In this document: positions 14,347 to 64,000 of the stretch, piece by piece
Layout: every line of letters starts with the position of its first letter
Numbering within the stretch: the stretch's first letter is position 1
Assembly: GCA_024345305.1 (NCBI GenBank)
Contig: BRON01000008.1
Coordinates: forward strand, 930,001 to 994,000
Length of the DNA stretch: 64,000 nt
Direction of reading: 5' to 3'
Source of the DNA: Mrakia gelida
Lineage: Eukaryota > Basidiomycota > Tremellomycetes > Cystofilobasidiales > Mrakiaceae
The notes under the pieces: generated by a model
Databases searched by the model: none
What the model saw: only the letters and a program-made list of their open reading frames with translations
Told to the model about the DNA's origin: nothing
Position numbers and translations under genes: made by a program

Positions 14347-16983
14347 TCACTCCCCCTTCCTCCTACCCTCAACCCTCCCCCTCCTAACCTCCAGCCCACG
14401 CTTCACAACCTCCTCCGTCACCCACGCTAACCTCTCCAGCTCTCCTTTCTCCCCTCCTACTCCCATCAACCCCCCCATCCCCTCCTCCCCTCCCTCCCCC
14501 AACCTCGCATCATAGACCCTCTCGCACTCCCCACACGCCAGTCGTCCCGGCACGCTAACCACCTCCTCTGGATTCTCGAGACTCTGAGTCGCCAGAGCGA
14601 GGGTGGTGAAGGTTGGTGAGTCGGAGTTGCCGCAGAAGAAGCAGTAGGGCGCCGAGGAGGAGGGTGAGAGGAGGGAGGGTCTGGATCCGATGGTGAGGAA
14701 GGACGGAGGCTCGAGAGGCTGGGGTGGAGGGGAGGGATGAGAGGGTGGAGGAGAAAGATTTGGTGCTGTTCCTGGTGGTGGTGTTGGGACTTGAGTTGAG
14801 CGAGTGGGGTGGGTTGAACGAGGGAGTGGGAGACGAGGTTGGGATCCTGACGCGACGGCGTTCGCGTTGGAGGGGGGAGGAGGAGGAGGAGCTGCTTCCG
14901 TCCGGACTCGTTTCGAAGGCGGGGGAGCGGAGGGACCGACATGCTGATCCGAGGAGCGGCGATCCTTGAAGGCAGAGGAGGAGGAAGAGGAGGAGGCTGC
15001 TGACGAGCGAGCGGCGGCGGTGGGGCGGGAGGAGGAGGACGGGGAGGAGCGGCCTGAAGGATGGCCACCATCTCGGCGTAGGCCTGCCTGCGTAATTGGA
15101 ATCTCGATCTGATTCCCTCCACATTTCTGTTGGGATGCTAAGGGAGGAAGAGAGTCGGAAGGAGTCAGTGAACGAACGAGCTGGACGAAAAGAGGCAAAC
15201 GAACGGCTTGAGTTGACCGACTCACTGTTCGATGGAACTCCTTAGCCACCTTTAGGATTGACGGGTAAGGATTCGCGACTGAAAGGAGAAGAGCGAGATC
15301 CTTGTCCTCCTCCTGATTCCAGAAAACCTTGGACGTCCCCGAGCTGAAAGAGAAGAGTCGAAATCAGCTCGCGTGAATCACGAGAGAAGGTGAATACTCA
15401 CTGGATTTCCTCGATGCGGCGCGTGAAGAGGAGTCTGTGGCAGGAGTAGTACTCCCGGCAAGCGGTGGCGGAACGCTTCGTCGACTGAGGAGAAACGAGA
15501 AAGCACAGTCGCAGAAAGCGAGAGTCGAAGAGATCAGCCGCTTGGTAGTCGAAGTTAGATAGAGCCGTGCGATGGAAATGGCGAAGAACGTACTCTTGAT
15601 TCAGCATAGCGTTCAAAGGCGTTCTGACCGTTCTCGTCTCGTACCAAATACCCTTCGCGCTGCGAAGCGAGAAAGCGAGCGAGACTTTCCTTCTCCGCTT
15701 CGAGCCAGGCTCCCCACGTTGGAAGAAGAGCGTCGAGTTGACGGCAGGAAGCAGGTTGAAATTGTCAGGTATGGAACAGAGGGAACAAGTCGACGAGAGA
15801 CGAAGTCAACACTCCTTGAACGAACGAACTCACCTTTCACTCCGAGTCGTCCTCCCTCCTCCTCGTTCTGGTCCCCTTCTCCTCCGAGGAATCGGCATCG
15901 CCTCAAAGCCATCTTGAGCCCTCAGTTCCTTTGCTCGAGCATCGATCGACTTCTTGACCTTCCGGCAGTGTTTCCAGCACACTTCGGCGGAGCGGTTGGT
16001 GAACTGTTGGGAAAAAGGGAAGGCGAAGCAGACGCGTCAGGATTGTTCTATTCTCGACTTCGATACGGAGCTCAAACTTGAGAGGGGAACGTACCGCAGT
16101 CTTGGCATAATCCTGGAAGGTTTCCCAGTCGTACTCGTTCTCAGCAGCCGAATCATCGTCGGCAGTGGGTAGAGACGCGATGAAATGAGCGAGATTCTCG
16201 TCCTCCTGTCGGCTCCAGGGGCCAGTCGAGGGAAGGGTAGCCTCCTTTAGGCTGTGGGAAGTTAGGCTAGATACAACAAAGTCAGCTCGTCACGACTCGA
16301 GCAAAAAAAGAGTGGAGGTAGGAGAAAGAGGGCGAAAACGAGCGACTCACCTCGACTCGACCTCCTGCTCCTCGACCCGCTCGACCAAATCCGCCTCGGC
16401 CTCGACTCGCACCTCCCTTCCCTTGCCCTTGCTTCTCCTCCTACTCTCCTCCAAGCTGCAGATCAGGAAGTCTTCTTCCGGCTGCCATTCCTCCGATTCC
16501 ATGCTCTGGGAGAGCCATTCGAGGGAGACGAGGTGTTGTTGTTTGGAACGAGCCGACGTTCGGTTTGCTCGAGCGACTGCCTCCCCAAATCCAGAATCCG
16601 GATCGACGATGAGGCGGGTTGCTTTGAGGAGAGTGGCAGTGATGAGGGGTTTGGGATGAGTTCCAGTCCGAGGGATGGAACGAGGAAAGAAGAGGTCAGA
16701 GGAAGGGCAAAGGAGGAGAACTCAGGGCTGAACAAAGGAAACGAACGACACGCACTTGGAGCTGCTGAGAGAGCTTGAGAGCCTTGTCAGACAGAGGGTC
16801 GAAGTAGAGGATGAAACCTAGTGGCCAGACGGGCTTGAGGTTGGAAGAGGAGGATGTAGACGCGACGGAGGAGGGCTGGATGGGCAGAGGAGAAGGAGGA
16901 AGGTGTCGAGCTCGAGCTCGAGGAGGAGAAGGCCGAGCAAGCCCTGCTGGAGCTCTTGAGCTTGATGCTGGTGGATTCGACAT
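14347..16983 (-). CDS. R1: RAP1-like BRCT / triple Myb / C-terminal CxxC protein
   Basis: Start MSNPPASSSRAPAG at 16981-16983. Exon 1 ends with the family strand LKPVWPLGFILYFDPLSDKA. The next exon completes a RAP1-like BRCT segment (ATRLIVDPDSG...LVSLEWLSQSMESEEW). Three Myb/SANT-like repeats follow. In each, the first half starts with Trp and acidic residues and the second half begins directly after an intron: WSRQEDENLAHFIASL + FTNRSAEVCWKHCRKV; WLEAEKESLARFLAS + STKRSATACREYYSCHR; WNQEEDKDLALLLSV + HPNRNVEGIRSRFQLR. A Ser/Pro linker leads to the C-terminal module FLTIGSRPS...YCFFCGN, ACGEC and the helix LERLAWVTEEVVKRGLEVRR. Nuclear, DNA- or chromatin-binding function is inferred from the domains. 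It is convergent with the DEAD-like gene and divergent from the nuclease gene (228 bp). Confidence 0.85.
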
Positions 16984-17211
16984 GGTCGAGGGTAGGAGAG
17001 TAGACTGTAGAGTTCCGTTCTTGATGATGAGAATGACCTCAAAAGGTTGGCTGTGAGAACGTGGACGGTTGCAGGAGAGGAACGATCGGTCCAGCTTTCG
17101 ACCTTCCCTTCCTTCGAACCCTCACGACTGCTCCTCCTCCTGCCTATGGGAGCTGGCTTCTTCGCGTCCAGATCGCTCTCTCCCTCGACTACACTCCTTG
17201 CTCGTATATCC

Positions 17212-19180
17212 ATGCCCCCTCAACGTCAACCGCAACCGAATCGCCCTCCCTGGAGGAACGACCAACGCAAACGAGGAGGAGGAGGTCGAGCTCAAGATCC
17301 TCCTCCTCCTCCTGCTTCCTCCTCGTCTCGCCTTCCTCCCAACCCCAAAAGGTCCTACGCCACTACTCCCATCGCTTCAGCATCACCTCGAGGTCAGACC
17401 CTTATGACCTACAACGTCGACGGCCTCAGGAAGGTCACGAACGAGCGAAACGGGCCTGTCAGTCTCTCCTTCCTTCGAGCTTGTGAGCTCGATCTGCCCT
17501 TTGATCTCGACTCGACGCTGACTCCTCCCGCTGCTTAAACTTTCACCCCTCAGTCCTTCTGGAAGCTCCTCGAGAGAGTCCAGCCCGACTTCCTCATGCT
17601 CCAAGAACATCAACTGCCTCGTAGGACTCTTCTTGATCCTCGATTCGACGAGCTCGGCTACAAGCACTGTTATATCGATCGTCCAGCGACCGTGAGTTTC
17701 ACGATGGCATCAACGAGGCTCGGAGGACACAAGACTGACATTGAGCTTGATCGGATGGCTGTAGAACGGACGGTGGGGAGTTGCCACGTTCTCTAAAGAG
17801 GAGCCGATCAATATCTTGCTAGGGGAGGATGAGGGGATGCCTTCGGACCTGCATGGAAGGTTTGTCACTTCTGATATATCTTTACTCGGAGACTCAGAAG
17901 ACACAGCTGACTTGGCTTGGACCCTTTTGTTCGGTCAGGCTGGTCGTGCTCGAGTTCGAAGAGGTTCGTCGACTCGCGATCTCGACTTCTTCATCGACGC
18001 GTCTTGCTCTTCCTGGCTTCCTTCCCACCTCCTGACGTTTTCGCACCTCCAGTTCATCCTTCTCAACGTCTACGCACCCTACGCAGGCGATATCGTTTCA
18101 CAAGTCAAGGTCCGGTCAACCTTTCCCCTCAAAGCCCTCGACACTCTCCTCGACTGACATCTTTCTTCTCGTTCGCTCGCACAGAACCTCGATCTGAAGC
18201 TCCAGTACCTCAGCAACCTCGAGATGGTACTTCGGAAGTGTGATAAGAGGAAGTGAGTAGCACGAAATCAGCTGCAATAAATTAGCTCTCCAGAAACCAT
18301 CCCTCCTTCGATGACTGACTTAAATCCCTCTTCGATCCTCAGACCTTTGATCTGGTGCGCCCTCCCTCGCTCGCTCGCTCGATTTCCTTCGCTGACCTTG
18401 TCTCTTTCTTTCTCCCACAGGGCTGGTGACTTCAACGTCCGACTCGACTCTCTATCGACACCGCTCCCCGTCGTTCCACCGTCGCAGAGGACGGGGAACT
18501 TCACCTCGTTCGTTTCCTCGTCCCTTTGCGTCTCGTCTTCGTCTTCGTCGAACGTTCGCATAACCGGCACCAGCACCTCTTTACCTTTTACGCGTCATCA
18601 GGGAAGAGCTATCGGCCTACCATCGAATCCTCAACCCTCGAGCTCCAGGTTATCGACCGATGCGAGACGCGTTCTCACACTTCCATCCCATCTCGCCCAA
18701 CCACCCCTTCGCCGCTCAAAGTCAGCTCTGGAAGCGGTTTACTCGACCTAATGGCTGGGATGGAAAGAGTGAGCTCCACCGAGCACCCGCCTCGTTTCTG
18801 TCTTCGTTTCGAGTCAGCGCTGATCTGCTTCGTGCTCGTTCTCATTCTCGTTTCGCAGAGGTTTTGGTCGGTCAAGGGTCTCGGTTTGTCCTCTCCTTCT
18901 GATGCTCCTCCATCTCTCCTTCGACTGACTGTTTCTTTATCTTCTATCAGGCTCGATGGGTTCATCGTCTCGAACCGATTCGTCTCAAGGCTCGAAAGCT
19001 GCGAGATCGAACGCAACACGTTCTGCTCGGATCATTTCCCCGTCGTTCGTCCTTTCCATTTCGACTCTCGTTTCCGTCTGTCCACTCTCTGACTCTCTTT
19101 CGTACTTCGTTTTGACACAGGTCCTCACTCTCAAACCGACCAAACCACCGCCAGCTTCCTCCAGCTCGAAACAGTCGTAG
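17212..19180 (+). CDS. ExoIII/APE-family endonuclease-phosphatase-fold nuclease
   Basis: Signature motifs of the ExoIII/AP-endonuclease family are present in order across about eight exons: TYNVDGLRK (metal-site Asn), FLMLQEHQL (metal-binding Glu), GRWGVATFSK, FILLNVYAPYAGD, AGDFNVRL (catalytic Asp/Asn), GSRLDGFIVS and CSDHFPVVLTL (catalytic Asp-His). Every catalytic residue expected for phosphodiester cleavage is therefore retained. The start MPPQRQPQPNRPP opens a Gln/Pro/Arg-rich N-terminus that may hold a nuclear or mitochondrial targeting signal; earlier in-frame ATGs exist but add a low-complexity segment. The stop is at 19178-19180 after a Ser/Pro tail. Likely role is base-excision repair of abasic sites. 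It could also be another member of the superfamily, because the YAP loop differs from the usual Y-x-PN. It is divergent from R1. Confidence 0.85.
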
Positions 19181-19494: not shown

Positions 19495-21331
19495 TCAAGC
19501 CGCCTTGGACGAGCGACGGTTCGACGTTGATGAGGTCGAAGTCGCGTCTGAGTGGGTGAGAGCTCCTGGTGCTCCGGTTGCGTTCTACACGAAAGCGAAG
19601 AATTCAAGGGTTCAGTGTCATACTCTCGCAGAGCGCCTGCAAAAAGCGATGAGGCAAACTCACTCCGTAAGAAGGAGGGATCGTCTCTCCGTCGAGATGT
19701 CCAACGTCGACTTCTTGACGAAGTTGCGCTGGTGGAAGAGGCTCGATTTCCGAAGCGAGACGAGTCGGCAGAGAGGGATGCGTATCCTGATGCGTATCCT
19801 GGCCTACGACTGAGGACGTTGAGGAGAAGGAGGGAGGAGAGAAGAGAGTCAGACCGGTGCGAGAGCAAAAGAAGACGAGCCAAAGGTCGATCGAACTAAC
19901 GCGACGTTGCTGGCGAGGTGTAGTTCCAAACTGGGACTTGAGACGCATCGTACGAGGTCTGTCTGATCTGAACGGGATCTCTATGGAGGGTGGTGATCGC
20001 TTCGTAGCCTGCGACGTCCTCCTGTAGGTTCGGATCCGGCTTCTCGCCCGACTCTTCGACGCGTCCGACTTCGGCGTTCTTTTGTTTCCTCCTCCTCAGA
20101 AACAGGAAAACGAGCACCCCAGCGATGACCACGACGGCTACGACACTGACTCCTCCGGCTATCGCTCCCGTGTTGGTAGATTTGGCTGCGAGGCTTCCTG
20201 CGGCGGCTGTTGCTGACGAGGAAGGGGTCGAAGAAAGAGTTGCTGAGTTGGAGGATGGGGCGACCGAGTTGGATACGATGGCTCCGGCGAGGGACGCAGT
20301 AGGCGATGTTGTCGGAGGGGTGGATGTTGGAGTCGTTGGAGGTAGGGAGGAGGTGGAAGGTGCTGCTGAACTCGTGGACGCGGCGATCACCGTCGCGCTC
20401 ATCGTCACTCCCTGCTCGACGTGCTCAGGATCTCCGACGTAGTTTTGAGAGCCTGCATCTTGAGCGAGGCAAGGAGTGATGTTCGAGTTTTGGACACTGA
20501 CTGAAGACGTAAAAGAGGGGGTAGGGATCGAAAATAGCGGGATCGTCAGGTTCACGCGTCGCGGTCGAGAAAAACACGCTTGAGAAAGACGAGACTCACC
20601 GCCGTCTCCCAGAAGATAGCTGACACCTCCATCGTAGTCATGGAGCTCTCCCCACATGACGGACTGTGATAAGATTCAGAGGGAGGAAGCGGATTGTGAG
20701 CTTGACGCTCGAACCTCTTGACGACGCGACTCGCTGATACGAGGAACCTACCCCTCCCGAAACGTCCACTGACCAAACGCGAGGAGAAGATCAGGTCAGC
20801 CATCGGCCGATGGGAGAATTCAGGCACCAGAGGAACGAACCGTTGTTCCAAATCACCCTAGTTACCGTCGTCGAGTCTTTCCAAGTTCCGTTCGGAGGGG
20901 CCAACCAAGGCCAAAAGCCTGCCGCGACTGGGACGTTGTTAACGGCGATGAACAAAGTGAAGTTCTGAGGTGCACTAGGGCTAGTGAACTGTATGTCGAG
21001 CTAGATCAAAAACGGAAGTCAGCACGAAGGAAGCGGAGGACGTCGCCGGAGTCGAGGGAGGAGAGATGAGAAAAACGAACAGGTCCGCACTGAGAGACGA
21101 TGGTTGCTGAGTTGGGGCTCAAGAAGGTGGCTTCTCCGAGGACCGAGAGAGCTGTAGAGCCGAGATAAGGGGGTGTGTGAAGAACTGTAAGGCGTACGAG
21201 AAGGAAGAACGTGAACTTTGAGCAGAGCGAAGGCGGCGAGATTGGATGAAACGCGTGAAGGACGAACCTCGAGCAGAAACTCGGCCCAGAAGACCTGAGA
21301 CCAGGACGACAATCGCCAGAGTACGAAGCAT
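19495..21331 (-). CDS. single-pass type I membrane protein (paralogue 1)
   Basis: Start at 21329-21331 with a clear signal peptide (MLRTLAIVVLVSGLLGRVSA). The extracellular part contains ATFLSPNSATIVSQCGP, FTLFIAVNNVPVAAGFWPW, APPNGTWKDSTTV, a YDGGVSYLLGDGG segment and VSVQNSNITPCLAQD. It is followed by a Ser/Thr/Ala-rich stalk and one membrane helix (AIAGGVSVVAVVVIAGVLVF) with an RRRK stop-transfer motif. The cytosolic tail extends through two further exons: one with LRQEVDVGHLDGETIPPSY, and the last ending NRRSSKAA at 19495. The tail motif EVDxG...PPxYG is shared with the neighbouring gene at 21634-23674, which supports these exons and shows a tandem duplication. The architecture is that of fungal cell-wall or sensor-like proteins; the ligand is unknown. 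Confidence 0.75.
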
Positions 21332-21633
21332 CACGTCTGGAGAAAGGAAGGTGAAGAGGTGGACGCTGATGGTTGGGGAGGAAGAGAGGGAAGGCTGGAG
21401 GAAGAGGACGAAGAGCGAATGAAGTCCGCTCCTATTCAGGGGCTGAGTGTTGAAGTTACGTAAGATCTCGGCGCACAAGGCTGACTTCTTTTTTTGGTTG
21501 GGAGGGGTCGCGTGCAGCCATGAAGAGGAGTTGTATATGCGAAGAAGAACGCCGAAGGGAACGAGAGGTCGACACGTCGAACGAAACGAGTGCTTTGCTC
21601 CAACGAAGAAGCGGAAAAACGAAGAAAATCCTA
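21332..21633. other. intergenic between tandem membrane-protein genes
   Basis: 302 bp holding the promoter of paralogue 1 and the 3' UTR of paralogue 2. Nothing else seen. Confidence 0.5.
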
Positions 21634-23674
21634 CTATCCCACCTTCGAGAACGAGGTCCTAGTAGTAGTGCTTCCCGTCGGAGCGGAAGGAAGCGAACGA
21701 GGACCGGTGCTCTGCGAAGCCGAGGGAAGAGAGGATAAACGAGACGCGTCGAGTCAGACTTCGCGTCGATCGAGGAGAACGAGGGGGGGAAAACGAGGAC
21801 TCACCCCGTACGCAGGAGGAGTCGAGGGATAAATCCCAGCATCAACTTCTTGGATGATGTGAGGACTTGTTTGGGGAGTTGTTGGGCGAGGAGGAGCCGA
21901 AGTGTTGTGGGTGACGGGGGCAGCTGGAAACGCCACGCGCACGAGGTCAGTTCGGCTTGGCTTTTGAGAGGAGCTCGTTGATATTTCAGGAGGCAGAGAG
22001 TTCGAGAAACAGGACTCACGAGTCGAAGGATGAGAGTAGGTCCAAGTCGAGGGAAGAGGAGTCGCTGATTCATCCCCTCGTCCACCCCCGTCCTCACTCG
22101 GTTCCTTCTCCTCAACTCCAGCTCCAACCGCACCTGCGCCAACCCTCTTCTTCTTCCTCAAGAGATAAAAAGCCACCGCGGCACCGAGCGCGAGAGCAGC
22201 GACTCCTGCAACGACTCCGCCGACGATGGGTCCCGTGGTGCTCTTCTTGACGGCGAAAGCTGACCCAGACGACGAGGATGTTGCTGAAGGCGAGGAGGAG
22301 GGAGACGTAGACGATGAGGTGACGGGAGGGAGAGAGGACGAGGCGGAGGGAATCGACGAGACAGCAGTCGAAGTCGAGACGGGAGTTCGAAACATCGCCT
22401 CCTTAAGGACCGTCGTCGTGATCCCTTGACCGGACATGATGTCGTTGAGTTCTTCGTGAAAACGGAGTCTCCTTGGTAGTCGTCGCTCAAACCAGGTCGT
22501 CCGAGGCAGGAGGTGTCGTTCGAAGCTTGGACGGTGACTGCAAGGACAAGACGCGCGAGAGATTAGTCGAAGCTCTGGGATCCTCCTCGACTCGACAAGA
22601 GCAGATGCTGACTTCCGTCTCCGAGCAGGTGAGATATTGTAAGAAGAAGGGTCCCAGCTTCGTCAGATTTGTCGTTCGTAGTCGAGTTCGGAGGGACGAG
22701 GAGAAAGAAAGAGGAGGGAACGAGAACTCACCAGCTCCTCCGTCGTAGAGGTAGAGCTCGACCCAAACTACGGTCTGCAGAGTCAGAATTGCATCAGCAC
22801 TCGCCCTTCTATCTTATAATCGACGGAAGGAGCACTCACCCCAGCAGCGACATCGACTGTTCTCGAACGAAACGAAGACCAGGTCAGCGTGAGCTCGACG
22901 CGTCTTCCTCGCTCTCTCTCCTCCATCCTCCCTTTCTTCCCACGAACGCTTCCCCACTCTCAACCCATCCCGAGAGGACTCACCTCCATCCCAAAACACA
23001 CTCATCAGCGTCCCAGCATCCTTCCAGCTCGTATCCGTCTCCGCCCAATTCCACACCGCCGCAGAGAAGGTCTTGTTGTTGATCGCGAAGAGGACGGATT
23101 GGTTCTGAGGTCTTGCCGGCGAGAAGAAAGAGATCGTGAGCTGTAGAGGGCGAGCAAACAAACGTCGGAAGGGGAAAAGGAAAGGAGGAGGGAGGCGGCG
23201 GTGAGCTTCGAGGCAAGTTGTTTGGTCCGTGTTCGAGGGAGAGGGTACGAGGTGAGAGAGGAGGAAGACGAACAGGATTGCATTGGGCGACCTTTTAGGA
23301 AGCGAAGAGGGTGTAAAGCAGAGCGGGCGAGAAGTCAGCAAGGCGGTGAAGTGAGGGAGGAGCAACGTGGACGCATGGTGAGTGGGAAGCTCTGTCTCCG
23401 TCGAGAGAAGAGCAACGAACTCACGAGAGTCTGCGAGTTCGGGGACGTCCAGCTCGCTGGTCCGATGGCAGAGAGTATCCTAGGCTCCAAGGTCGTACCT
23501 CTCGCTGCTAAGAAAGGTGAAGAAGGAAGAGTTTCAGCTCCGAACGAGGAAGGAATCGAGAGGAGGCTAGCTCGAGGAGGGGAGAGACGGGAGCTCACCT
23601 GGATTTCCAAGCACCATAGCTTCCACTCCGACCAGGAACAGCGCTGCAAGAGGTACGAAGAGAGGAAGAAGCAT
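21634..23674 (-). CDS. single-pass type I membrane protein (paralogue 2, apparent frameshift)
   Basis: Same design as its neighbour. Signal peptide MLLPLFVPLAALFLVGVEA starts at 23672-23674. The ectodomain contains ILSAIGPASWTSPNSQTL, LTISFFSPARPQNQSVLFAI, VTVQASNDTSCLGRPGLSDD, then a Ser/Thr stalk, a membrane helix (VGGVVAGVAALALGAAVAFY), an RKKKR stop-transfer and a cytosolic tail IIQEVDAGIYPSTPPAYG spliced to a last exon ending FSKVG (stop 21634-21636). Within the exon after the ectodomain the frame encoding VTVQASNDTSC does not continue into the frame encoding MSGQGITTTVLKEAMF and the stalk; a one-base change near the run of four A at 22459-22462 would join them. This is either a sequencing error, a real frameshift, or an unseen splice. 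The rest of the gene is intact. Confidence 0.7.
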
Positions 23675-29790: not shown

Positions 29791-32138
<2,348 letters not shown>

Positions 32139-44973: not shown

Positions 44974-44985
44974 GTCGAAGACTCA

Positions 44986-45351: not shown

Positions 45352-45595
45352 GAGAGGAGGGGGAAGAGGAAGGGGGTGGATGTCGAGACGATAGGGTGGA
45401 GTCGAGAGATACGAGGTTGGGGGATGGAAGCTGAGGAGGAAAGGAGGGAGAAGCGAGGTCGAACTCACCGGTGGTCGAACTTCGCTCCTCCCTCTCCTCC
45501 CCCGTCTTTCATCTTTCTTCTCTCCGCCTTTTTCGAAGCTCATCTTCTTTTTAGATCTCAACCATCACCATCTTCTTCTCTATCATCTTCGAAAA

Positions 45596-48670: not shown

Positions 48671-50637
48671 ATGCCTTCCGGTCCCCATCCTTTCCAACCC
48701 CTTCCCTCTTCCGTTTCCAAGTCTTCTCGAAACCCGGACGACCTCGCGTGGCTTCCAGACGAAGTCTTCTTCTTCGATGTCGTATCTCAGAAGGCGCAAA
48801 GTCACAAGAAGACCCTTCAGGTGAGGCAGAACGCTATCTTCCGTCTCCGCTCCTCGCGCTCTCCCTTCTTCGTCGAGCTGATATTTCGCTCGCTTTCTAT
48901 CGATCATCCCCCAGGACCGACTTCTCGAAGCCGGACTCCCCGACTGCACCACTCAAGTCTTCAGCGAGGCCACTGTCATTTTCATCGATATGACTCTCGC
49001 CTCGCACGAGTTCCAGGACCCATCTCCCTCTCAAAAAGTCCTGTCGCTCGACTGGTACCTCGAGTCGTATCACCAACAGCTAGCCCTTCCGAAGGAGGAA
49101 TTTAGGGTCAAGTCAGAGTCATCTTCCGACGAGGAGGAAGAAGACGAGGAGGATGGGAAGTCGGAGGAGGATGGGAAGTCGGAGGAGGAGGAGGGAAACA
49201 GACCTCGGTGGGAGGCTGGCGACAACGACGAGTGCGTACCTCCTTTGGTTGATCTCCCCACCTCTCTTCTCTCTACTCATCTGACTGTTGCATTCATGTG
49301 GTTCTCCACAGCTACGATCCTAAGGCTGATTCAGATCGGCAAGTTCCTCGGTTCTCAGGTCATCTCTTCTCTTCGCTGACCCCCTCTCGCTTTCCTCTTG
49401 CTCCTCTCCAGATACTCGCAGGTGGAGATCGACAATCTCAAGCGATACGTGAAGCAAGCCAAGACCAACGCCGAGGGATTTGAAAGGTTTCTCAACAAGG
49501 TTCGTTCGTTGAGAGCTTCCTCAGTCAAGGAAATGATCGCGTCGCGTCGGACTCGCTGACCTCGTTCACTTGTATCCTTTCGTGCTTTTTTTACCCTTCA
49601 GTACCCTCAGAGGACCCTCCAAGGAGTCAGTAGCTTCTACTACCGTCGATGCGATCGAGCTGTGCCTCAGTCGTCGAAGGGAAAGGACAAGGGAACCAAG
49701 TGGTTGAGATGGAGCGACAAGGAAGACGAGAAGCTCGTCGAGCTTCTGGTTCGTGCTGCATCGGGTACGAGCATGAGGAGTGTCTACAAGAAGTTGTCCG
49801 ACGAGGTGAGGTTACTTCTTTCGCTCGTTCAACAGCAGCTTCTCGAGCCTTGCCTTCACGCGTCGACGACTTCTCCAACTGACATCGCTCCCCCCCCTCC
49901 TCTTCCTCCTGCCCCTCCTTCTCTTGACCTGAACCCCCTTCCCTCCTTGTCATTTTCAGAGCACGACGCCCTTCCGAACCCCTCGATCTGTCAAACGTCA
50001 CCACGAGCGCAAGAGGGCTCGCTTCGACCTCGCCGTCGCCGCTCTCAAAGCCAAGGAAGCCTCGTCGTCGACCACCTCCCAGTCGAAGCGACCCTCCTTG
50101 TCGAGAACCGATCCTCAAGTCCCCAAGCGAGCGAAGACGACGAACGAAAAGTCTTCCGGATCCTCTCACCATCATGGACATCACCATCCGTCTCCCGCTC
50201 CTCCCTCCGATCGCCCCTCCGGCTCGCCACTCCAACACCACCACCCTCCCCACTTCCCTCCCACTTCTCCTTCCTCCTCTCACCAAGTTCACCATCAACC
50301 TCCTCCTCCTCCAACCTCTCAGTACCACCCCGTTCCCTCCGACGAGCCTGCGAACCAGGTCCAGAAGGTCCTCTCGTGCTACTTCTGCTCAACAACGAAC
50401 GCGACCAACTACCAGAAGGCGATCTACGCCGAGGCAAACCCTGCCAGCCCCAGCAGTATCGCCAAGGGGAAAAGGATGGCTTGCTTCGAGTGCTACCAGT
50501 GGTTTAAGGAGAGGATCGACTCAAAGGGGGCGGAGGAGGAGGCAGCGATGGGAAAGCTGGATAGGTTGGTTTGGGAGACGCGGAACCTGATGGCGTGGGG
50601 AGAGAAGAAGAAGGTCGAGAGGAGCGGTGGGGAGTAG
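48671..50637 (+). CDS. R5: RAP1-like BRCT / double Myb / C-terminal CxxC protein
   Basis: Start MPSGPHPFQPLPSSVS at 48671. BRCT segment: DLAWLPDEVFFFDVVSQKA, DRLLEAGLPDC, ATVIFIDMTLAS and KVLSLDWYLESYHQQLAL, the last nearly identical in pattern to R4. An acidic region with a short tandem duplication follows. Myb repeats: VPRYSQVEIDNLKRYVKQ + YPQRTLQGVSSFYYRRC, and WLRWSDKEDEKLVELLVRA + the exon starting STTPFRTPRSVKRHHERKRA. The first Myb exon requires a GTTCTC donor to stay in frame. A His/Pro/Ser linker leads to SCYFCSTTNATNY, MACFECYQW and the helix LDRLVWETRNLMAWGEKKK, stop at 50637. Tandem with R4, convergent with R6. Looks intact. Confidence 0.87.
49149..49184 (+). repeat. 18-bp tandem duplication inside R5
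   Basis: The 18-base unit encoding EDGKSE occurs twice in a row in frame, within the acidic region between the BRCT segment and the first Myb repeat. It is exact, so recent. Confidence 0.85.
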
Positions 50638-51080: not shown

Positions 51081-52547
51081 CTACCTCCCCGCGTTCAAGA
51101 TCACCTCAGCCCTCTTCTCTTCTCCTTCCCGAACCAGAATTCTAATCACCTCCTCAGAATCTATCTCCTCCCCTCTTTCCTCGGCAGACAGCGTCTTCTC
51201 CTCGTAAGACTCAACACAAGCCTCGCACCCGTTCATCTCAACCTGGCCCCCGTCCGACGTCGACTCCCCCACGCACTCCAATGCGATATTCCTCCACGTC
51301 CCACAGAAGTAGCAGAACCTCTTGGCCTCGGGACAGCCTGGAAGTGGCTCTCCGACTCGGTAGCCTTTTCCTGAGGAAGAGGCGGAGATGGGCGACGAGG
51401 GATGCCTCGCGAAGGCGGCGGGCGTGGTGTGGTTGTGATGAGGAGGTGGTCGAGTTGCGAGGTCTTCTGTGGAGGAGGAAGATAGAGAGACAAGTCGTCA
51501 GATCTGATTACCTCTCGTCGTCCGCAAGGAGCTCAAAGAAAGAACAAGAGAACCTCACCATGGCCGTTCGACCTTCGAGAGTCGTAGACGGTCGAGGCGC
51601 TTCGTCGATCTTCGTTGACCTGTCCGTTGGGTTCTCTGAGATTTGAAGCCAAAGACGAGCCACGAGAAGAATGAGTCAGCGTCGACGTCCGAGGTCGAGA
51701 GGAACGAAGAGAAGGCGGAGCAGGAAAGGTGAGGACGTACCCGTCGACTTGGCTCGAGACACGTCCGTTTCCGATGGCGTCGAGTCTCTGTCTCTTGTTA
51801 GCGTCCGCCACGGATCTGAGCACGTATATCGAGGAAAGGAAGAGTGAGCTAAGCTCGTTGTCGCCCGTTTGAAGTCAAGGGAAGCGAGGGATGTCGAGCA
51901 CTCACCCAGAACCATCGTCTCCGGCAGCACTTCGTTTCTGTCGATGAGGATCTTCCGATTGAGTTCGAGATCTGCACGCGAAAGAGGGGATCAGGAGGAA
52001 AGAGACCGTCAGCCAAGGCTGAGTGGGAAAAGAGACGACGAGCGAAGCTGAAACAGGGTGAGGGAGGAGCTGACCTTCCGGCGTCGAGTTGTTCTCGTCA
52101 TCTCGATCTCCTCCTCCTCCTCCTCCGACGGGATTCTGGAGCTCAAAGTCCTCCTCCGGGAGCGTCCTGTCTGATCGATACACTCAGACAACCACTCGGT
52201 CCTCACGACCTTCAACCCTCGATTTTTGCTCTTCCAGAACGCTTGGAAGTGGAGATTGTCCTCGAGTTCGGCAGCGGTAAAGGCCTTGAGGACGACATGA
52301 GTGGCGTCGGTAGGGCGGTTGACGATCGTAAGATGAGGGTGGTGAGCCTGACGGGGACGAAGGTCGAAGAGAGCGAGGGTGAGCCGGAGAAAGGAAGAGG
52401 GACGAAGGGAGGAAGGAGAGTCGAACGAACCGTGAGGTTCTGAGCCCAATACTAAGTCGATCTCGAGAACTCGTCGAGGAAGATTCTGATGTTCTCGTCG
52501 GGACCAGGCCAGGAGTCGTCGTCTTGATGTCCGTTCGGGAGACACAT
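51081..52547 (-). pseudogene. R6: BRCT plus C-terminal CxxC family member interrupted by a stop
   Basis: The ATG at 52545-52547 opens MCLPNGHQDDDSWPGPDENI and RIFLDEFSRST, which aligns with the first BRCT strand of the siblings (W-P...I.L.FD..S). It then meets TAG at 52452-52454, after which the same frame continues to a GTTCGT donor in phase with the next exon. That exon completes a good BRCT segment (RPTDATHVVLKAF, LKVVRTEWLSECIDQTGR, LPEEDFELQNP). Only a weak Myb-like piece remains (DLELNRKILIDRNEVLPE). The C-terminal module survives: RFCYFCGTWRN, GCEACVESY and a short helix ending ILNAGR (stop 51081-51083). A start after the TAG would lose the first strand. Nonsense decay is the simplest reading; a sequencing error is the alternative. 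Confidence 0.65.
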
Positions 52548-53036
52548 TGGCTGAAGCGAGAGAAAGAGGTAGGAGAAGGTGGCCGTCGGAGTGGAGCGAG
52601 AGAAGGTCGAATCACCTCCCTCCTTTCGTTTTTCGCGGTTAGTAGCCTCGGTCGCGAAGACAGCCGCAAAACAATTTCCTACAGGTTTCCTCTTTTGGGC
52701 TCACTCCCTACCTCCCAAGACAAGGAAGACGAGAAAGCTGAGCGAGAGAGAGCAGCCCTCCTGCCCTCCTCAACCCATTCTCGAGCTCAAACTCGACGCG
52801 TCGAACCTCAAACTCGAACTCCTCGTCCCTCTCCCTCCCTCTCTCCTCCCCCCCCGTCTCCCAAGCTCAAAGGGAAATGCTAAAGGGTGTATATCGTTAC
52901 AGATCACAACACGAACAAGGAAAACACAATCAAAGGGGTGAGGTGGGAGGCAAGCAAGCAAAAAGAGCGAGCAATAGGATGCAAAGACGAGAGGACGAGA
53001 GACGAAGTTCGAGTCGACGAGCGAGGTCGAGGTCCT
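52548..53036. other. intergenic, R6 promoter and TOP1 3' UTR
   Basis: 489 bp between two minus-strand genes; open frames here are unconserved. No feature recognised. Confidence 0.5.
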
Positions 53037-56000
53037 TTAGAAGATCCATTCTCCGTTGGTGTCGACGGCCCACTGTTCGAAGACGAGACGAAGGCGAGAC
53101 GAGAAGCGAGGGTCAGCTCGAGGAAGGCAGGGGAGGGGAGGGACGCGACGAGGGCGAACGAGAGGGAGGCGGGGAAAGGGATGGAGGGAGAAGAGAGAGG
53201 GGACGAACCTGGAACTTCTCGATGAGGACCTTGCTGAGCAGTTTTTCGACTGGGACGTCGTTCTTCTTGGCTGTTGGGATCAGAAGGAAGAACGAAGAGC
53301 GAGAGTCAGCACAAGGAAGACCAAGCGAGGGCAACAGAAACGAGAGGAAGACGAGAACGAACCCCAAGCGACGGTAACTCGAGGATCGATGTAGTTGATC
53401 TTCGAACTGTAGCGAAGAAGCACGAACGAACGAGCGAGGTCAGTCAGAGACGACTCGAACGGAGGACGCGTCGAGCGAAAACGAGAGCCACTCACGTTCC
53501 CAACGAAACCTCCGCTCCCTCCTGCCTATCCACAGCGTTCATCTTGGCTTGACTGTTTCATCGACCCAACCCAATCCAACCGACGAAAGGTCAGCAATCG
53601 CTCGAGCGAAACAAACGAACGAACGAAGCGAAAGGACGAAACGACTCACGCAATCTTCTCATCCAACTTCTTCATCGCCGCCTCGATCAGCGCCACGGTC
53701 CCCAAGTTCTTCTTCGGGGTAGCCACCTTCTTCTTGGTCTCCTCCATGATCTCCTTGAACTCGTCCTTGATCATCTTGATGTTGTCGGCGAGAACGTCAG
53801 GTCCGTCGACGGCGTGTCCATCGGCGAGCTTCTTCTCGTTTCCCTGAGAGAGGCGAAACGAGACGAGGTCAGCGAACGAGGTGGTGTGGAAGGATGGGTG
53901 AAACGAGAGTCGGTGCTGACCTTCTCAAACTTCTTCTTTGCCTTCTCAATCTCCTTGAGCTTGTTCTCCTCCTCGTGAGAATCGATCCACTCCTCCGTCA
54001 GGTCGTCCTCGAGCGTCTTCCACTTGTCCTTCTTCTTGAGCGTCGGATCAACAGAGCAGGCTTGATGACGAAGCTTCATCCTCTGGTACTTGAGGGCGAG
54101 GATCTGGTTGCGTGCGACGAAGACAAATCGGAGGAAAAGGACTCGAAGTCAGCGAGAGTTTGCCTTCGTCTTCGTTCGCATCGAACGCGTCTCGGTTCGA
54201 AAAAGGTCGAGAGAGCAAGGGAAGAGCGACTGACCTTATCCGAGAGCTTCTCCATCGACCCAGCATGACCCTTCCCAACTGCTCTCTGATGGTTACAGAG
54301 CACAGCGACGGCTCGGTTGGCTCGGTTGTAGGCGAGGAGCTTCTCGGTGACGGTTCCGTTGGCGGGTGTGAGACGAGCGAGTTCCTGTTCCATCGTGTGC
54401 GAGGCGTTGTAGGTACGGAAGACCTTGGCTGAGAGTCCGGGCATGTACGACGAGAGGTGCTTGTTGATGATTCCGGTCTGGCGAGGAAGCGAGACAAGGC
54501 GAGGGAGGGGAAGAGGAGGGTCAGCGAACGAGCTCGAGAGAGACGAGACGCGACGAGAACGAAAACGCGACGAGACGAGCCACTCACATCCAATCGATCG
54601 AACAACAGATCCCCATCGACCTTAGGATCCCTCTTGAACAGCTTGACGTTCTTGAACACCTGCTCGTCGACGACGATCTCGTTGACGTATCGAATCGAGT
54701 CCTTTCCGAGGAAGTCGAACCTGAGCGTGTTGGGAGGATCCTGGATGAGTCCGACATGCTCGATCCTGAGCGAACAGCATCCGACGGTATCGGCCTCGTC
54801 CTCTCCCTTCTCGTTTCCAGCTCGGAGAGCGAGCTTGTCAATGAAGTACATGGCCGTCGCTCGTTGTCGGTCGGCGGTGACCTTGTCCTTCAAGCCGGCG
54901 GTGTAGTCTTGTCGGATTCGATCGATGAGACCCTGAGAGGAGGTGAAGAGGTGAAGAGGAGTCAGATGAGGTGGTCGCTCGAGCGAGGAGAGAGAGAGGG
55001 AAAGGAAGTCGCGTCGAGAAGGAGGGACGAACCTTGAGAGCTCGAGCCTTCTCGAACTTAGCCATATCACTCTGACCCTTGAGCGACGAGTTGGGAGCGA
55101 GGAAGACGTATTTGATGTTGTCGTTGACGTTCTCCTTCCAGGTAGCGAGCCAGGTGACAGTGTTCTCGTGGACGACCTGAGACGAACGAGGCAGCAGAAC
55201 GAGTCAGCGTCGAGGTCGAGGTCTACTCTTCCGAGAGCGAGAGCGACGACGAGAGGAGACTCACATCCTTCCACTTCCCAGGAATGTTGGGCACAGGAAC
55301 CGGCGAGTCCTTTCCGATGTTGATGGTGATGTCCTCGGGAGCGAGTCGAAGCTGCGAGGCAAGGGAAGAAGACGCGAGGCTCGTCAGCTCGACGAAGGGA
55401 CGCGACTCGACGAGACGCGAGTGCATCTCCGAACGGAAAGAGAGAGGACTGATAAGACTCACCTTGAGTGTCCCCTTCTTAGGATGTTCTCCTCGACCTC
55501 TGAACAAACCAGGAGGTTCGACCCTGAAGTTCCCGACCTTCTCCTTTCGTCCGTCGAGAAGACACGTCGTGTAGCTCTTCTCCGACTCGTCCCTCAGTCG
55601 CTTGACCCTGCGAAACGAAGCGCGAAAGGTCAGCGACGAAGCCAAAAGACGAGCATCCAAACGAGCGAGCAAAGGGAGGAAGGGAGGGAGGAGGGCAACG
55701 CGAAAACACTCACTCCTTCTTCTCCGCCGAACTCGTGCTCTTCTTCTTCTCCTTCTCGTCCTCGAAGTAGGTCCACATCGGCTTGAAGTCGCACTTCTCC
55801 AGCTTCTCGATCGAGATGTTCTCCACCTGCAACGGGCAAAACGAACGAAGCGAGTCAGAACGATCTCTCTCGAATCCACGAAGGGAGGGAGGGTCGACTC
55901 ACGGGAGGATGATCCAGAAGCGTCTTCTGGAAGTCTCTGAAAAAGTTGGCTTGGAAGGTAGCGTCCTTAGCGTGGTCGGTCTCGATCATGGCAGCGAAGA

Positions 56001-57951: not shown

Positions 57952-58113
57952 CGCTCGCTCGAGACCAGAGAGGATGGGGGGTGAATGGATGGGAGGGGTG
58001 ATGGATGCGGGCGAGGGAAGGAAGGAAGGAGGCTGGCGCGAGCTCTTCCTCTCGCGACTTTTTAGATTTTTATTCGACGCTCGACACGATGTATGGAAAT
58101 AAAAAACATTAAG

Positions 58114-59548: not shown

Positions 59549-61827
59549 TCACCTCCCTCCTCCCTCCACTCCCTCCCTCCTGACCCTCATCCCCTTCTTG
59601 AGCACCTCCTCCGTAATCCACGCCTCCCTCACCATCCCTTCCAACCCCTCGGGAGGCTGAACTCTCCCGATCCTCCTGTTGTAGACGAACGAGGAGCACG
59701 GCTGGCACGCTCGTTTCGACCCGACTCGATGGAACGTCTTTGCTCCGTCGGCACGCTCCTTCCAGGCGACGAGATCGAAGAGCATCTTCCAGCGATAGGT
59801 GGATGTATCCCCGCAGAAGAAGCAGAAGGGGGAGGAGGGAGGAAGGAAGGAGGGTGCAACGCCGGGGAGGCGGAAGGAGTCTGGTTCGAGGGTGGAGAGG
59901 GAAGAGTTGGCTTGGAGTTGAGATCGAGAGGAGGTTGTGGAAGGGTGAGGAATGGGGTAGAAGTTGGAAGAGAAGGGAGGGTGCTGGTGATGGTTCGAGA
60001 TCGACGACGATGCGACGGGGAACGGCGAGGGCTGTTGCGGTCTCGTTGCGTTTGGACGAGGTCCTTGAAAGACGGGAAGGCGGGACGAGGAAGCGCCTGG
60101 CGCCTGCTGTTGATGGTGATTCGAGGAGGAAGAGAAGGAGGGAGGTTGCTGAGGCTCCTCGTCGATGTTCGAGTCCGAGTTCGAGCTCGATCCGAGTCCG
60201 GGTTCGACGCGATGTTCCTTCAACGCTTTCCTCTTGAACGATCGAACGGCGGCGTCGTACCAGGCTCGGTTTCTAGAGTAGTACCTGGAGATCCCTCGAA
60301 CTGATCGACTTGGGTGCTGGAAAAGCACAACGGAAGCGAGACGCGCAAAGGTAGGTCAGTTCAGAGGAGGGGACGCGACCGCGAGCGAAAAAACGGGCTA
60401 GAAAGATGCTCACGATTTCGCGTAGCTTCCTCGCCACTTCCAAGACGCTTGTGTTTCGACCGGCCAGGATTCTAACGAGATCTTCCTTTCCTGAGGTGTG
60501 TAGGGAGTTCGAGCGCTTCGTCTTGAACGACGGACGGGTCGGGAGGCGAGCTTGTTGGTGGAGGTAGAGGGCTGAGGAGGGGATCTGGTGGTGCGCGAGC
60601 AAGCAAGACAGGAAGGGTCAGATGGGAGAGAGGTCGCTAGGGAAGAAGAACGGAAGGATACTCACTGCTCTTCGATCGAAGACGCGTCCGACTCAGAAAG
60701 CGAAGACTGCTCCTCCTCCTCCTCCTCCTCCTCCTCCGAGACCTCGACGCCCTCTTGCCTGGCTCTGGCAGCGAGGGCAGCATCTCCCGACCCAGATTTC
60801 CTCCCGTTGGCTTTGTAGACTGACGAAGGTTCAAAAAGAAAGGGGAATGGCCATCGTTTTAGTCGGAGGGGACGCGTTGATGAGGACGCGAAGCTCGTCC
60901 TGCGTCGTCAATGGAGAGAGAGGAGCCAGACTCACAGATACCTCGACAGCTCCCACACGTCAAAGCACCTCCCTTCTCCTTCAAGAACCTCCAGTCCGAC
61001 GAGCTTGTGGTTTTGCAGTTGTGGCAGACTCTCTCCTTCGGTCGCGGTTTGGGAAGTTGTTCCCTTCGAGAAAGAAGGAAGGTAAGGATCGTCAGTCAAA
61101 AGCTCTGAGGCGTATAGAGGTACGGATATGGTGCTCACATCGATTCCGCCTCCTCAACGCCTTCGAAGGCCTCATCCTCGCTCGAAGAGTAGTCCGTCCC
61201 AGAATCGCTCCTCTGCTCCTCCTGCTCTCGACCTCCTCTCCCCGACTCGTCTCGTTCCTCCTCCACCTCCCTCGACCCCCCGTTCCCGAACGAAGACGCA
61301 GCAGCAGCTCCTCCGAAGTTGGTCGAGTCCAATCCGTATCCGCTCTCTGGAACCGAGAATCCATGGAGGAGGGAGTCCTCGATCCACTCGAAACGAACGA
61401 CGTGCTGATCTGGTCGAGCCGCTTGACGAACCCACGAGCTCTGAGGGCAGTCCGGATCGAGGATGAGATGGGTGGCTTCGAAAGCGAGGAGGGTAGTGGG
61501 AAGAGTCCTGCCTGAGGAGAAGAGGTTGTCCTGGGAGAAGGAGACGAAGAGACGCAAAGGTCAGAGGAGAAGAGGGAGGAGGAGCGAGGAAGGTGAGCTC
61601 GAACGTACCTCGACTTCGGCCCTGACGGAGCTAGCCTTGGAAGAGAAAGGGTCAAACAGGATGAGGAGAGGTCCTCGGTGATTTTCTGGCCATCCTCGAA
61701 GGATCGAGGACGAGGAAGAAGCAGAGGGGGCATAGGGAAGAGGTGGAGCTGGGTCGAGGGAGGGAGGAGGAGGAGGGACAGAGGGGTCGACTGGTTCTTC
61801 TTGGGCTGGAAGGAAGGGAGTCGACAT
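59549..61827 (-). CDS. R7: RAP1-like BRCT / GATA-finger / Myb / C-terminal CxxC protein
   Basis: Start MSTPFLPAQEEPVDPS at 61825-61827. BRCT segment: GPLLILFDPFSSKASSV, TLLAFEATHLILDPD and HVVRFEWIEDSLLHGFSV. A GATA-type zinc finger follows (CHNCKTTSSSDWRFLKEKGG...CGSC, near 60947-61028) with the classical spacing, TT dipeptide and Trp-Arg. An acidic coil with a run of Glu leads to one Myb repeat: FKTKRSNSLHTSGKEDLVRI (weak first half) + HPSRSVRGISRYYSRNRAWY after the intron. A His/Ser/Pro linker and the C-terminal module follow: LEPDSFRLPGVAPSF, FCFFCGDTS, ACQPCSSF and the helix VREAWITEEVLKKGMRVRRE, stop 59549-59551. It is divergent from R8 across 406 bp and looks intact. Confidence 0.87.
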
Positions 61828-62233
61828 GTCGTGCGAATCGAGATGATGAATGGGCGCTTCTACTCTGGAAGATGACTAGGAAGTTGTAGCATCCAGGGTG
61901 AAGAACCGTGGCGAGAGCGCAGATGCAGTAGGAGAAGAGGGTGGGTCGAAAGGTGAGCTTCGTCCTTCGTTCGAGCTCATCCCCGCACCCGCCCCGTTGC
62001 TTGTATAGACCCATCGATGAGCTTTTGAGTTCTGAAGTAGCTCTTTTCCTTGACACCTGATCTGAATTATCTCCAAAGCCGAAAAAAACTCACGAGGGTC
62101 CAATTCTCTCTCGAGAGCTCGAGCTTGCCCCTGCTCCGTCTCGCCTCCTTGCCCACAACGGCCATCGTCTCCCTCTCGGAGACGTCCTTTCTTTCGTATC
62201 TTCGCGCACCTATCCGGCCCCTGGCTTCTAATC
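61828..62233. promoter_or_regulatory. divergent promoter region, R7 / R8
   Basis: 406 bp between the head-to-head starts of two family members; both promoters lie here. No specific element is recognised. Confidence 0.5.
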
Positions 62234-64000
62234 ATGTCCACAGGTCCAAACCCATTCGGCTTCGTCGCTTCAGCATCGACCTGGGAGCAGCAACCCATCG
62301 TCGGACATCCCCTTCCTCCTTCAGCCCTCTCCTCCTCCTCCTCCTCTTTCCTCACTCAACTCGCTGAACCGCCTCTCGTCTGGCCCTTCCCGGACCCAAA
62401 GATCGCTCTCTACTTCGATCCTCTCTCCCCCAAAGTTCAATCTCTCCAAAAGACCCTCGAGGTGAGTCTCTTGAGCCCTTGAAAGAAGGGAAGGAAGGAG
62501 AAATGTTGAGCTCGCGCGATTTTCTGTCCTTCCTCCCCTTCCTCCCTCCTTTTGCTGACCTTTCGTCGTTCTTGCTCTCTTTCACAGAGGAAAGCCTTAT
62601 CCCTAGGACTCTCTCCATCCTCCTAGCCTACCACCGACATCAATCAAGCCTCCCACGTCGTTCTCGACCCCGATTTCGTCAACGAAAACCTCCCTCTTCG
62701 ATCCCAACCTTCCCCTCGACGCGTCGTGTCCGTTCAGTGGATCGTTGATTCGTTTCTCGAGGAGAAGGCTCTTCCGGAGGAGGAGTACGATCTCAGTACA
62801 CCCATCGAGGAGCCTTTGGAGGAGGAGGACGTCGAGATCGTCCAAGCGGAGGTGGAAGCTCGTCCTCGAAGCGCCTTCGTCGCCAAAGCTCGTTCCCGCC
62901 CCGCCCCCAACGCCTGGCGTAGAGAGGAGGAGGAGGACATGGTTCGCTTTCTCGCTTCAGGTTCGAAGAAGGATGGCGACCTGCTTGAGACCTGGCACTC
63001 TTATCAACAGGACGTGAGCTCAGGGTTTCTCTTTCTTTTCGTCTTGACTCAAATCTGACGCTTTTGCTTTCCCAGCATCCCTCTCGGACTTCAATCGCCT
63101 ACAGGCGGCAGCACTACATAAGGAAGAAGGTATCTTTCAATCCGAAGGTCGCTAAGCTCAGAGCTGCCGCCGACGGAGGACTCGTCGTCGCGGATGAGAA
63201 GGAGGAGGACGAGAACGAAGAGGATCCCATTGCGTGAGTTTATGTATCTTGCTGTGTACCCTTCAACCTGACCCTCTGACGAATTTTTGCCGTCGCTCTC
63301 TCCTTTCAGTCCCTCGCGTCTCGATACCAACTACGTGAACGGATACGCGACACCGAAAGGTTGGCTCGTCGAGGAGGAGGAAGAGATGGCTCGGTTTATC
63401 GCCTCGAACCCTCAGAGGAACGAACAAGGGATGATACTATGGGAGCAGTACCAGAAGACAGTGAGTAGCTTAGGACTGAGAAACAGCTTTGTGGATCGAG
63501 TGTGCGTCGTCGCCGCGTCTGACGGACGGGTTCGCTTCCTCCTTCCCACCCAGCATCCGTCGAGGAGTCGCGTGGCCTACCGGCACCATCACCTTTACGT
63601 TCGAATGGAACAGATCGAGGCTCGGGTCGCCTCCCTGATTGCAGCCGACGGCGGTCACCCCATCGTGTACGAGCATCCCGAGGTTGTCGAGACGCGTCCG
63701 GAGGAGATCAAGGAGGATGAAGTCCTTCCTGTTTCGTGAGTATTTCTGTTATCGCACACTCCCATCGGTTTGGGCCCGAGGTGACACCTTACTTTTGGCT
63801 CTGCTTGACTGCAGGGAAGCTCGTTCCCAGCTCAAACGTCAACGACCGACGACCCTCGATCCTTTCACTCCCATCCCCCTCCAATCCATTCGACGAGACC
63901 GGGGTAGACAGCGAGGTGTGGTTGGCGGTCATCGAGGCTGCTTCAGCTGTAGAAAGACTAGGACTTGTTCTCAGTGGTACCGGTACAACGAACAGGAGGA
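62234..64000 (+). CDS. R8: RAP1-like BRCT / Myb / GATA-finger protein (3' partial)
   Basis: Closest to R2, with EQQPIVGHPLPPSAL and VWPFPDPKIALYFDPLS in exon 1 (62234-62461). With the acceptor used by R2, exon 2 would read RKALSLGLSPSS then TAG at 62624-62626, where R2 has TAC. That TAG is preceded by CTCC and is itself a usable acceptor, in phase, so the exon can begin at 62627 with PTTDINQASHVVLDPDFVNE. The rest reads RRVVSVQWIVDSFLEEKALP, WRREEEEDMVRFLASGSK + HPSRTSIAYRRQHYIRKK, WLVEEEEEMARFIASNPQ + HPSRSRVAYRHHHLYVRM, then a final exon with the start of the GATA finger (CFSCRKTRTCSQWYRY) that runs off the window. By analogy with R2, two more Myb repeats and the C-terminal module should lie beyond base 64000. 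Confidence 0.78.

Follow-up and report, generated by a model that had tools for sequence, protein, structure and literature searches.

About forty Rap1-like BRCT-Myb genes, some with GATA-type zinc fingers, are concentrated on one contig of Mrakia gelida

Within the window, the whole 64,000-nucleotide stretch of Mrakia gelida DNA analyzed here, eight related loci occupy positions 14347-64000, the last of which (R8) extends to about 65.7 kb, and they are part of a much larger family. Places encoding its terminal zinc module number 39 in the genome at E <= 1e-3, with 36 of them on a single contig (C8, 1.79 Mb), where members are spread over 530-1665 kb of 1793 kb. We consider it probable that the family as a whole comprises about 40 nuclear, multi-module DNA-binding regulators that have been spread and reshuffled within one chromosome. 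A sequence-only reading of the window had proposed a common origin for the eight genes and a large local expansion; the former is supported, and the genome-wide count of homologues it suggested as a check enlarges the latter from eight loci to about 40 on C8.

The figure of about 40 is made up of the 36 C-terminal modules on C8, the module of R6, and three BRCT places (764, 787, and 1509 kb) with no C-terminal module nearby; a single gene may account for two of the modules, at 784-785 kb. The counts are lower bounds, as they come from exon-wise matches to six queries, none of which recovered the R6 module. Matches with E > 1e-3 were left out of the place count, while two doubtful places, on C9 (E 7e-4, two stops) and on C7, were kept in. 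The family is nearly absent from the other 24 contigs, where C1 has one gene that seems complete, C6 a BRCT copy with no further family parts seen, and C7 a decayed copy whose matched stretch contains seven stops. A plain tandem array does not describe the arrangement on C8, as 7-661 kb separate closest relatives, and relatedness shows no trend with distance in a C-module tree of poor resolution (12 of 20 inner branches left open). A mating-type chromosome was also considered and rejected: C16 carries all four STE3 matches, and the homeodomain matches, ten in all, are on C1, C9, C11, C14, and C16, so that C8, with no homeodomain match, is not the pheromone-receptor contig.

The features in the window are given below. 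Gene models were made ab initio, those in the window being anchored on motifs picked by eye, and several exons are uncertain, chiefly in R2, R6, R7, and R8.

14347-16983, minus strand: R1, with BRCT (about 16800-16351), three Myb repeats, Ser/Pro linker, and C-terminal zinc module (about 14643-14347); anchored gene model, alignments, and splice sites
32414-35922, minus strand: R2, with BRCT, Myb1-2, GATA-like finger, Myb3-4, linker, and C-terminal zinc module; gene model and splice sites
34155-34262, minus strand: GATA-like zinc finger of R2, C-x2-C-x20-C-x2-C; in profile A4, Pfam GATA not reported for it singly
32810-33996, minus strand: R2 side of the R2/R8 gene-conversion tract, with Myb3, Myb4, linker, and introns; sliding identity 96-100% to R8
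44080-44990, minus strand: R3, a short member with linker and C-terminal zinc module (44343-44080); matched by family queries
45596-47969, plus strand: R4, with BRCT (about 45764-46150), Myb1 (46458-46700), Myb2 (46720-47010), linker, and C-terminal zinc module (47667-47969)
48671-50637, plus strand: R5, with BRCT, two Myb repeats, linker, and C-terminal zinc module (50371-50637); gene model and splice sites
51081-52560, minus strand: R6, with BRCT and C-terminal zinc module (51320-51081); divergent, poor gene model
59549-61827, minus strand: R7, with BRCT, GATA-like finger, one Myb repeat, linker, and C-terminal zinc module (59830-59549)
60935-61035, minus strand: GATA-like zinc finger of R7, C-x2-C-x7-W...C-x2-C; ranked third by Pfam as GATA (E 0.0028, below cut-off)
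62234-64000, plus strand: 5' part of R8, with BRCT, Myb1-2, and the start of a GATA-like finger; the window ends inside the gene
63849-64000, plus strand: region of the R8 GATA-like zinc finger, truncated where the window stops

The domain make-up was established by profile, and searches with the BRCT and Myb segments, another check proposed beforehand, matched known BRCT and Myb domains. The seven-member BRCT profile (A3) matched 69 PDB sequences, including TopBP1 (E 1.1e-5) and BRCA1 (E 3.6e-4); the others among the 60 of 69 matches listed are proteins that we take to be BRCT-bearing. For single members, Pfam ranked BRCT first in R7 (E 0.0054) and BRCT_2 first in R8 (E 0.0062), both below cut-off. 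The BRCT-like N terminus claimed for all eight genes thus stands for seven (R1, R2, and R4-R8), but neither the gene finder nor a three-frame reading of 44600-46000 on the minus strand gave one for R3.

The family Myb-repeat profile matches known Myb repeats, and a Rap1 affinity comes from a relative on C8, g1262, in which the Rap1 Myb model PF08914 scored 28.4 bits over two stretches of the whole protein against a curated cut-off of 27.1. Taken singly, repeats 1 and 2 of g1262 had PF08914 as their best Pfam model (E 0.0012 and 0.014, below cut-off). The model was not reported for the tested R8 repeat nor for R1 and R4, Rap1 chains were absent among the PDB profile matches of the Myb repeats, and the sole PDB match of the Rap1-like repeats was a non-significant one to Tbf1 (E 0.13). 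Repeat number varies, as had been suggested, with three Myb repeats in R1, four in R2, two in R4, two in R5, one in R7, and four in R8, the complete repeat in R7 being new. Intron-split repeats were found in these six genes, while R3 and R6 hold remnants at best. At the DNA level an AG acceptor abuts the codon opening the HPxRT-like helix 3 motif in 11 of the 14 repeats, a placement that is not common by chance, unlike an AG somewhere within 12 nt; R1 repeats 1 and 2 have it one codon ahead of the typed motif, and R5 repeat 2 has it at a greater distance upstream.

The Ser/Pro linker with an in-frame terminal CxxC...CxxC module holds for seven of the eight genes (alignment A1) but not for R8, where past the window end, to about 65.7 kb, Myb3-4 and the linker are followed by a module that is out of frame. 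R2 and R8 each contain one frame break; exon 1 of R2 has a one-base gap relative to R8 and g1041, by which its two BRCT exons are set out of phase with the usual acceptor.

Overlooked in the earlier reading was an internal GATA-type finger in R2, R7, and R8, which was present in 8 of 23 regions examined. The profile of the eight fingers (A4) matched the PDB entries 2kae (E 1.4e-4), GATA-3 (2.1e-4), and GATA-4 (0.005), followed by a LIM protein (0.0051). Pfam GATA ranked first for g1262 and g1525 and third for R7 and was absent for R2 and g1107, with all ranks below cut-off. A genome search with PF00320 exceeded the cut-off at C8:1053668-1053736 and recovered the R7 finger (C8:990946-991026, 16.4 bits, below cut-off). 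The finger answers to the C-x2-C-x17-20-C-x2-C form of the GATA profile. It shares with GATA factors (AreA, GATA-3, C. elegans 2kae) the C-x2-C-x7-W...C-x2-C pattern and the profile matches to GATA structures, but it has 19-20 residues between the Cys pairs, sits among Myb repeats, and has an altered end (e.g., GACRAAHY), which in GATA fingers is usually NACGLYY. The terminal module is tentatively predicted to adopt a GATA-like zinc fold; its profile gave no meaningful match in the PDB, and in the structure comparison families outside the compared list may also come into question, and a new fold does not follow from the absence of a match.

Rap1, which acts at telomeres and promoters, is deeply conserved and usually single copy. 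Like Rap1/TERF2IP, the family has Rap1-type Myb repeats (PF08914 in whole g1262) after a BRCT at the N terminus, but it has no detectable RCT, carries a GATA finger in some members plus the C-terminal zinc module, has as many as four Myb repeats, and numbers about 40 copies. The RCT domain (PF11626) was found in none of three full-length models (R4, R1, and g1262) or four C-terminal modules, and its best genome match, in a search with no positive control, was below cut-off (E 0.127). The RAP1-type domain order claimed earlier therefore stands for BRCT and Myb only, with zinc modules in the place of RCT, and because no Rap1 C-terminal domain was found we call the family Rap1-like, short of Rap1 proper. 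The family may descend from a Rap1-like ancestor. Genome searches with PF11626 and PF08914 found no canonical Rap1 gene, from which nothing is concluded as they had no positive control. An RCT domain is ascribed to all known RAP1 homologues in PMC10813129. Rap1 occurs in one or two copies per genome, in contrast to the 39 C-module places here; Hansenula polymorpha is reported also to have more than one Rap1-like gene (PMC6510891), but with two copies (HpRAP1A/B) against about 40.

R2 and R8, which are mutually inverted, are 96-100% identical over about 1.2 kb, in their introns as well, whereas elsewhere the two genes are 50-89% identical, and dS in the tract is 0 to 0.007; this one tract is therefore a recent gene conversion. 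Purifying selection acts on the family, the 17 informative segments, drawn from five gene pairs, having dN/dS of 0.13-0.66 (22 segments tried, three without an estimate). In a comparison bearing on positive selection at DNA-reading residues, as in an arms-race family of the KRAB zinc-finger type, Myb helix-3 exons had a dN/dS of 0.54 and BRCT exons 0.36 (p 0.07, from non-independent pairs). Recently duplicated long segments are not supported in the compared pairs, in which homology is nearly confined to gene bodies.

An unlikely explanation is a birth-and-death family under weak constraint, in which drift governs the multiplication and decay of copies and the function is minor or redundant. 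The frame breaks in R2 and R8, the reduced members R3 and R6, the decayed C7 copy, and the C6 BRCT copy agree with it, but dN/dS is well below 1 in the 17 informative segments, intron positions are kept, and in 22 other members (R8 gave no such exon) the C-terminal module sits in a long open exon. That a mobile element carrying gene bodies spread the genes is highly improbable: the family's near-absence from the other 24 contigs and the flank likeness of R4 and g877 (about 100 bp upstream of the start codon) and of R8 and g1041 (about 60% over some 300 bp downstream) speak against it, even though R2, R8, and g1041 homology ends near the start codon while introns remain alike.

It is quite unlikely that the genes are paralogues of Rap1 proper, diversified as telomere or subtelomere proteins for chromosome ends and subtelomeric repeats. 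They lie in the interior of C8 (530-1665 of 1793 kb, on a contig whose ends may not be chromosome ends), TTAGGGTTAGGG is absent from the window, the RCT domain was not found, and Rap1 is normally one copy, not about 40; the combination of BRCT and Rap1-type Myb, TTAGGG arrays at contig ends (e.g., both ends of C1), and the non-significant match to Tbf1, a TTAGGG-binding factor, speak for such a role. A family that coats or marks C8 as a chromosome-specific factor would explain why copies stay, given 36 of 39 C-module places on C8 over 1.1 Mb without distance structure. We hold this very unlikely, as there are the seemingly complete C1 gene and the C6 BRCT copy, and within-chromosome inversions would give the same pattern with no cis function.

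The reading that we prefer is a diversified set of chromatin or transcription regulators, and the folds suggest nuclear location, DNA binding, and regulation. The ground plan runs from BRCT through one to four Rap1-type Myb repeats and a Ser/Pro linker to a second zinc module, perhaps GATA-like, with a GATA-type finger among the Myb repeats in about a third of examined members. Most likely each protein would have an individual combination of Myb repeats and zinc fingers for contacting DNA, and would contact proteins through its BRCT domain and C-terminal module. The family probably grew by duplication inside one chromosome and was scattered along it, probably by inversions, while gene conversion, together with repeat gain and loss, reshuffles it.

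Vertebrate KRAB zinc-finger clusters likewise place many DNA-binding paralogues with variable repeat number on one chromosome, with unrelated domains. By analogy, a fungal counterpart, in which some 40 chromosome-restricted, gene-converting Rap1-derived proteins, each with an individual set of Myb repeats and GATA fingers, evolve against invading DNA or so as to control their own chromosome in cis, is conceivable, if doubtful. Basidiomycete Tay1, with two Myb motifs in tandem, and TRF/TBF are Myb telomere proteins in fungi with TTAGGG telomeres; in the main texts BRCT goes unmentioned (PMC7952879, PMC7744550), as does GATA in PMC7952879. Literature titles and abstract openings, covering few subscription journals, report no BRCT-Myb-GATA or large Rap1-like family. 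Among 5.8 billion proteins, R4 and g1262 had no match at E <= 0.01 (7988 and 7976 candidates with the most words in common scored), a result from which lineage restriction is not to be judged, as scoring covered those candidates only and both proteins are rich in low-complexity stretches. The neighboring topoisomerase I, as a control, gave 7732 matches from 7995 candidates (best 64%, Trametes; Sporobolomyces 61% among the 120 matches listed); basidiomycetes are therefore in the database, Mrakia gelida itself seemingly not.

A Rap1 relative with zinc modules in the place of RCT, multiplied to about 40 copies on one chromosome, offers a case for asking how a core chromatin protein may turn into a large family of predicted DNA readers, how DNA-binding modules are mixed through gene conversion, and what makes copies scatter inside a chromosome yet hardly leave it.

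The eight related loci (R1 to R8) that the sequence-only reading had placed at 14347..64000, as RAP1-like BRCT-Myb genes, are present at those positions in both the window reading and the gene models, all of which are computational. R8 extends about 1.7 kb beyond the window end. The loci lie on contig C8 (BRON01000008.1), which accounts for 1.79 Mb (5.1%) of a 34.86-Mb genome assembly in 25 contigs; the window covers its bases 930001-994000. Interspersed among them are four ordinary genes, modelled computationally and named here from their motifs, together with one further region:

17212-18157, endonuclease/exonuclease-like protein
19896-22662 (-), two open stretches, both with a Ser/Thr-rich part and with basic residues after a hydrophobic helix
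24173-26010, RAD23-like UBA protein
29791-32138, KRR1-like KH protein
53646-55989, topoisomerase I

The identity of topoisomerase I is backed by a protein database match, and its best matches are basidiomycete proteins, with at most 64% identity among the 120 matches listed, so that the fungus itself is probably absent from that database. The two minus-strand stretches resemble small membrane proteins and could be local duplicates of another family.

The family is far larger than the window and is concentrated on C8. Merged matches of six protein queries (R4, R7, an R8/R2 chimera, R1, a gene on contig C1, and R5) identified the C-terminal CxxC...CxxC zinc module (C-module) at 39 places with E<=1e-3, namely, 36 on C8 and 1 each on C1, C7, and C9, and BRCT segments at 30 places (28 on C8 and 1 each on C1 and C6). 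Tightening the limit to E<=1e-5 leaves 36 C-modules, 35 of them on C8, and 24 BRCT places, 22 of them on C8; a binomial estimate for the C-modules is 2.7e-44, although duplicated copies do not count as independent events. On C8 the family extends over about 530 to 1665 kb on both strands, with some 17 of the roughly 40 members known as sequence matches alone. Elsewhere, the C1 gene appears complete, the C9 C-module match is weak with two stops, and two other copies were found:

C7:1641136-1641690, C-module copy that has decayed, its matched stretch containing seven stops
C6:955384-955803, family BRCT copy followed by an early stop

No further family part was seen by eye in the 1.7 kb read for the C6 copy, which is either a BRCT-only relative or a remnant.

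Other features of the assembly were also noted:

C8:1741349-1741378, short internal TTAGGG array 51 kb from the contig end, the sole C8 place among the matches listed
C1, TTAGGG arrays near both ends
C16:465013-466017 and C16:503471-504508, a pair of STE3 pheromone-receptor genes separated by 38 kb
C16:222554-326504, weak homeodomain matches

The C16 features may mean that the assembly contains both mating-type alleles or that the species is self-fertile.

No tested domain in the window genes reached the Pfam cut-off, and family alignments were therefore run as profiles against PDB sequences. The BRCT profile (seven regions) matched 69 sequences, led by TopBP1 (E = 1.1e-5) and BRCA1 (3.6e-4), and the Myb profile (fourteen repeats) matched c-Myb (1.2e-4); these are whole-sequence values, and the best single-stretch values were weaker (BRCT, 0.0067; Myb, 0.0034). 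The remaining BRCT matches among the 60 shown are presumably BRCT-bearing proteins. Rap1 chains were absent from the 16 PDB hits of the Myb profile, and a further profile, built from thirteen Rap1-like repeats that closely resemble one another, matched Tbf1 alone, without significance (E = 0.13). Support for Rap1-type Myb repeats comes from one relative on C8, g1262, and not from each gene individually. The whole g1262 protein exceeds the curated Pfam cut-off for the Rap1 Myb domain (28.4 versus 27.1 bits; E = 2.3e-6; two stretches), whereas its repeats 1 and 2 taken singly rank that model first below cut-off; repeat 3 best fits the general Myb model. "Rap1-like Myb" is thus backed by one over-threshold member.

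A Cys4 finger with GATA-like spacing, missed by the sequence-only reading, lies between the Myb repeats of R2, R7, and R8 and also occurs in g1107, g1189, g1212, g1262, and g1525, for a total of 8 of the 23 regions examined by frame reading, which intron-split fingers would escape. A profile of these eight fingers matched GATA factors first in PDB (2kae, 1.4e-4; GATA-3, 2.1e-4; GATA-4, 0.005), followed by a LIM protein (0.0051). The Pfam GATA model ranked first for the g1262 (0.0057) and g1525 (0.0029) fingers and third for that of R7 (0.0028), after a domain of unknown function and a zinc ribbon, all below cut-off; it was not reported for the R2 and g1107 fingers. In a genome search, one C8 finger exceeded the GATA cut-off (1053668-1053736, with a same-strand family match about 0.76 kb downstream), as did four on other contigs.

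The acceptor AG directly precedes the HPxRT-like motif in 11 of 14 Myb repeats tested, lies one codon before it in 2, and is further upstream in 1, a pattern in favor of common descent of the repeats. Across 22 C8 members whose C-module could be read, closer spacing on the contig did not go with greater similarity (Mantel rho, 0.12, a value equalled or exceeded in 382 of 2000 shuffles), and a member and its nearest relative are separated by 7 to 661 kb. Repeated inversions scatter genes inside a chromosome without their leaving it. A study of ascomycetes describes such a mode as mesosynteny (PMC3219968), and it may apply to the C8 family.

R2 and R8 are inverted copies 26 to 29 kb apart. Alignment windows are 96 to 100% identical, introns included, between R8 64208-65391 and R2 33996-32810, versus 50 to 89% over the rest of the gene; on the 5' side of the start codon, homology falls to background. 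The tract is best read as a recent gene conversion over Myb3, Myb4, and the linker. Relative to each other and to g1041, another family member, the two genes have one frame break each, that of R2 lying in its first BRCT exon and that of R8 at the C-module. Nei-Gojobori dN/dS (custom script) was computable for 19 of 22 segments from five gene pairs. The 17 outside the tract gave 0.13 to 0.66, and the two inside are nearly unchanged (one 0 and 0; the other 1.46, from one synonymous and four other changes). Pooled values of 0.54 for Myb helix-3 exons versus 0.36 for BRCT exons (Fisher p, 0.07; overlapping pairs) are suggestive, and not more, of faster change in the predicted DNA-reading part.

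The domains present suggest nuclear proteins, which would read DNA by several modules and make protein contacts via BRCT. The family matches two of the three defining domains of Rap1, but the third, the Rap1 C-terminal domain (RCT), was not found, and the Rap1-like order may reflect either descent from Rap1 or independent arrival at a similar order. Rival accounts would give the family a role at telomeres or one in cis on its own chromosome, or would attribute its expansion to plain birth-and-death drift or to spread by a mobile element. On the most economical account, the genes form a family of predicted DNA-binding regulators that would have expanded and scattered within one chromosome and may still be undergoing mixing by conversion.
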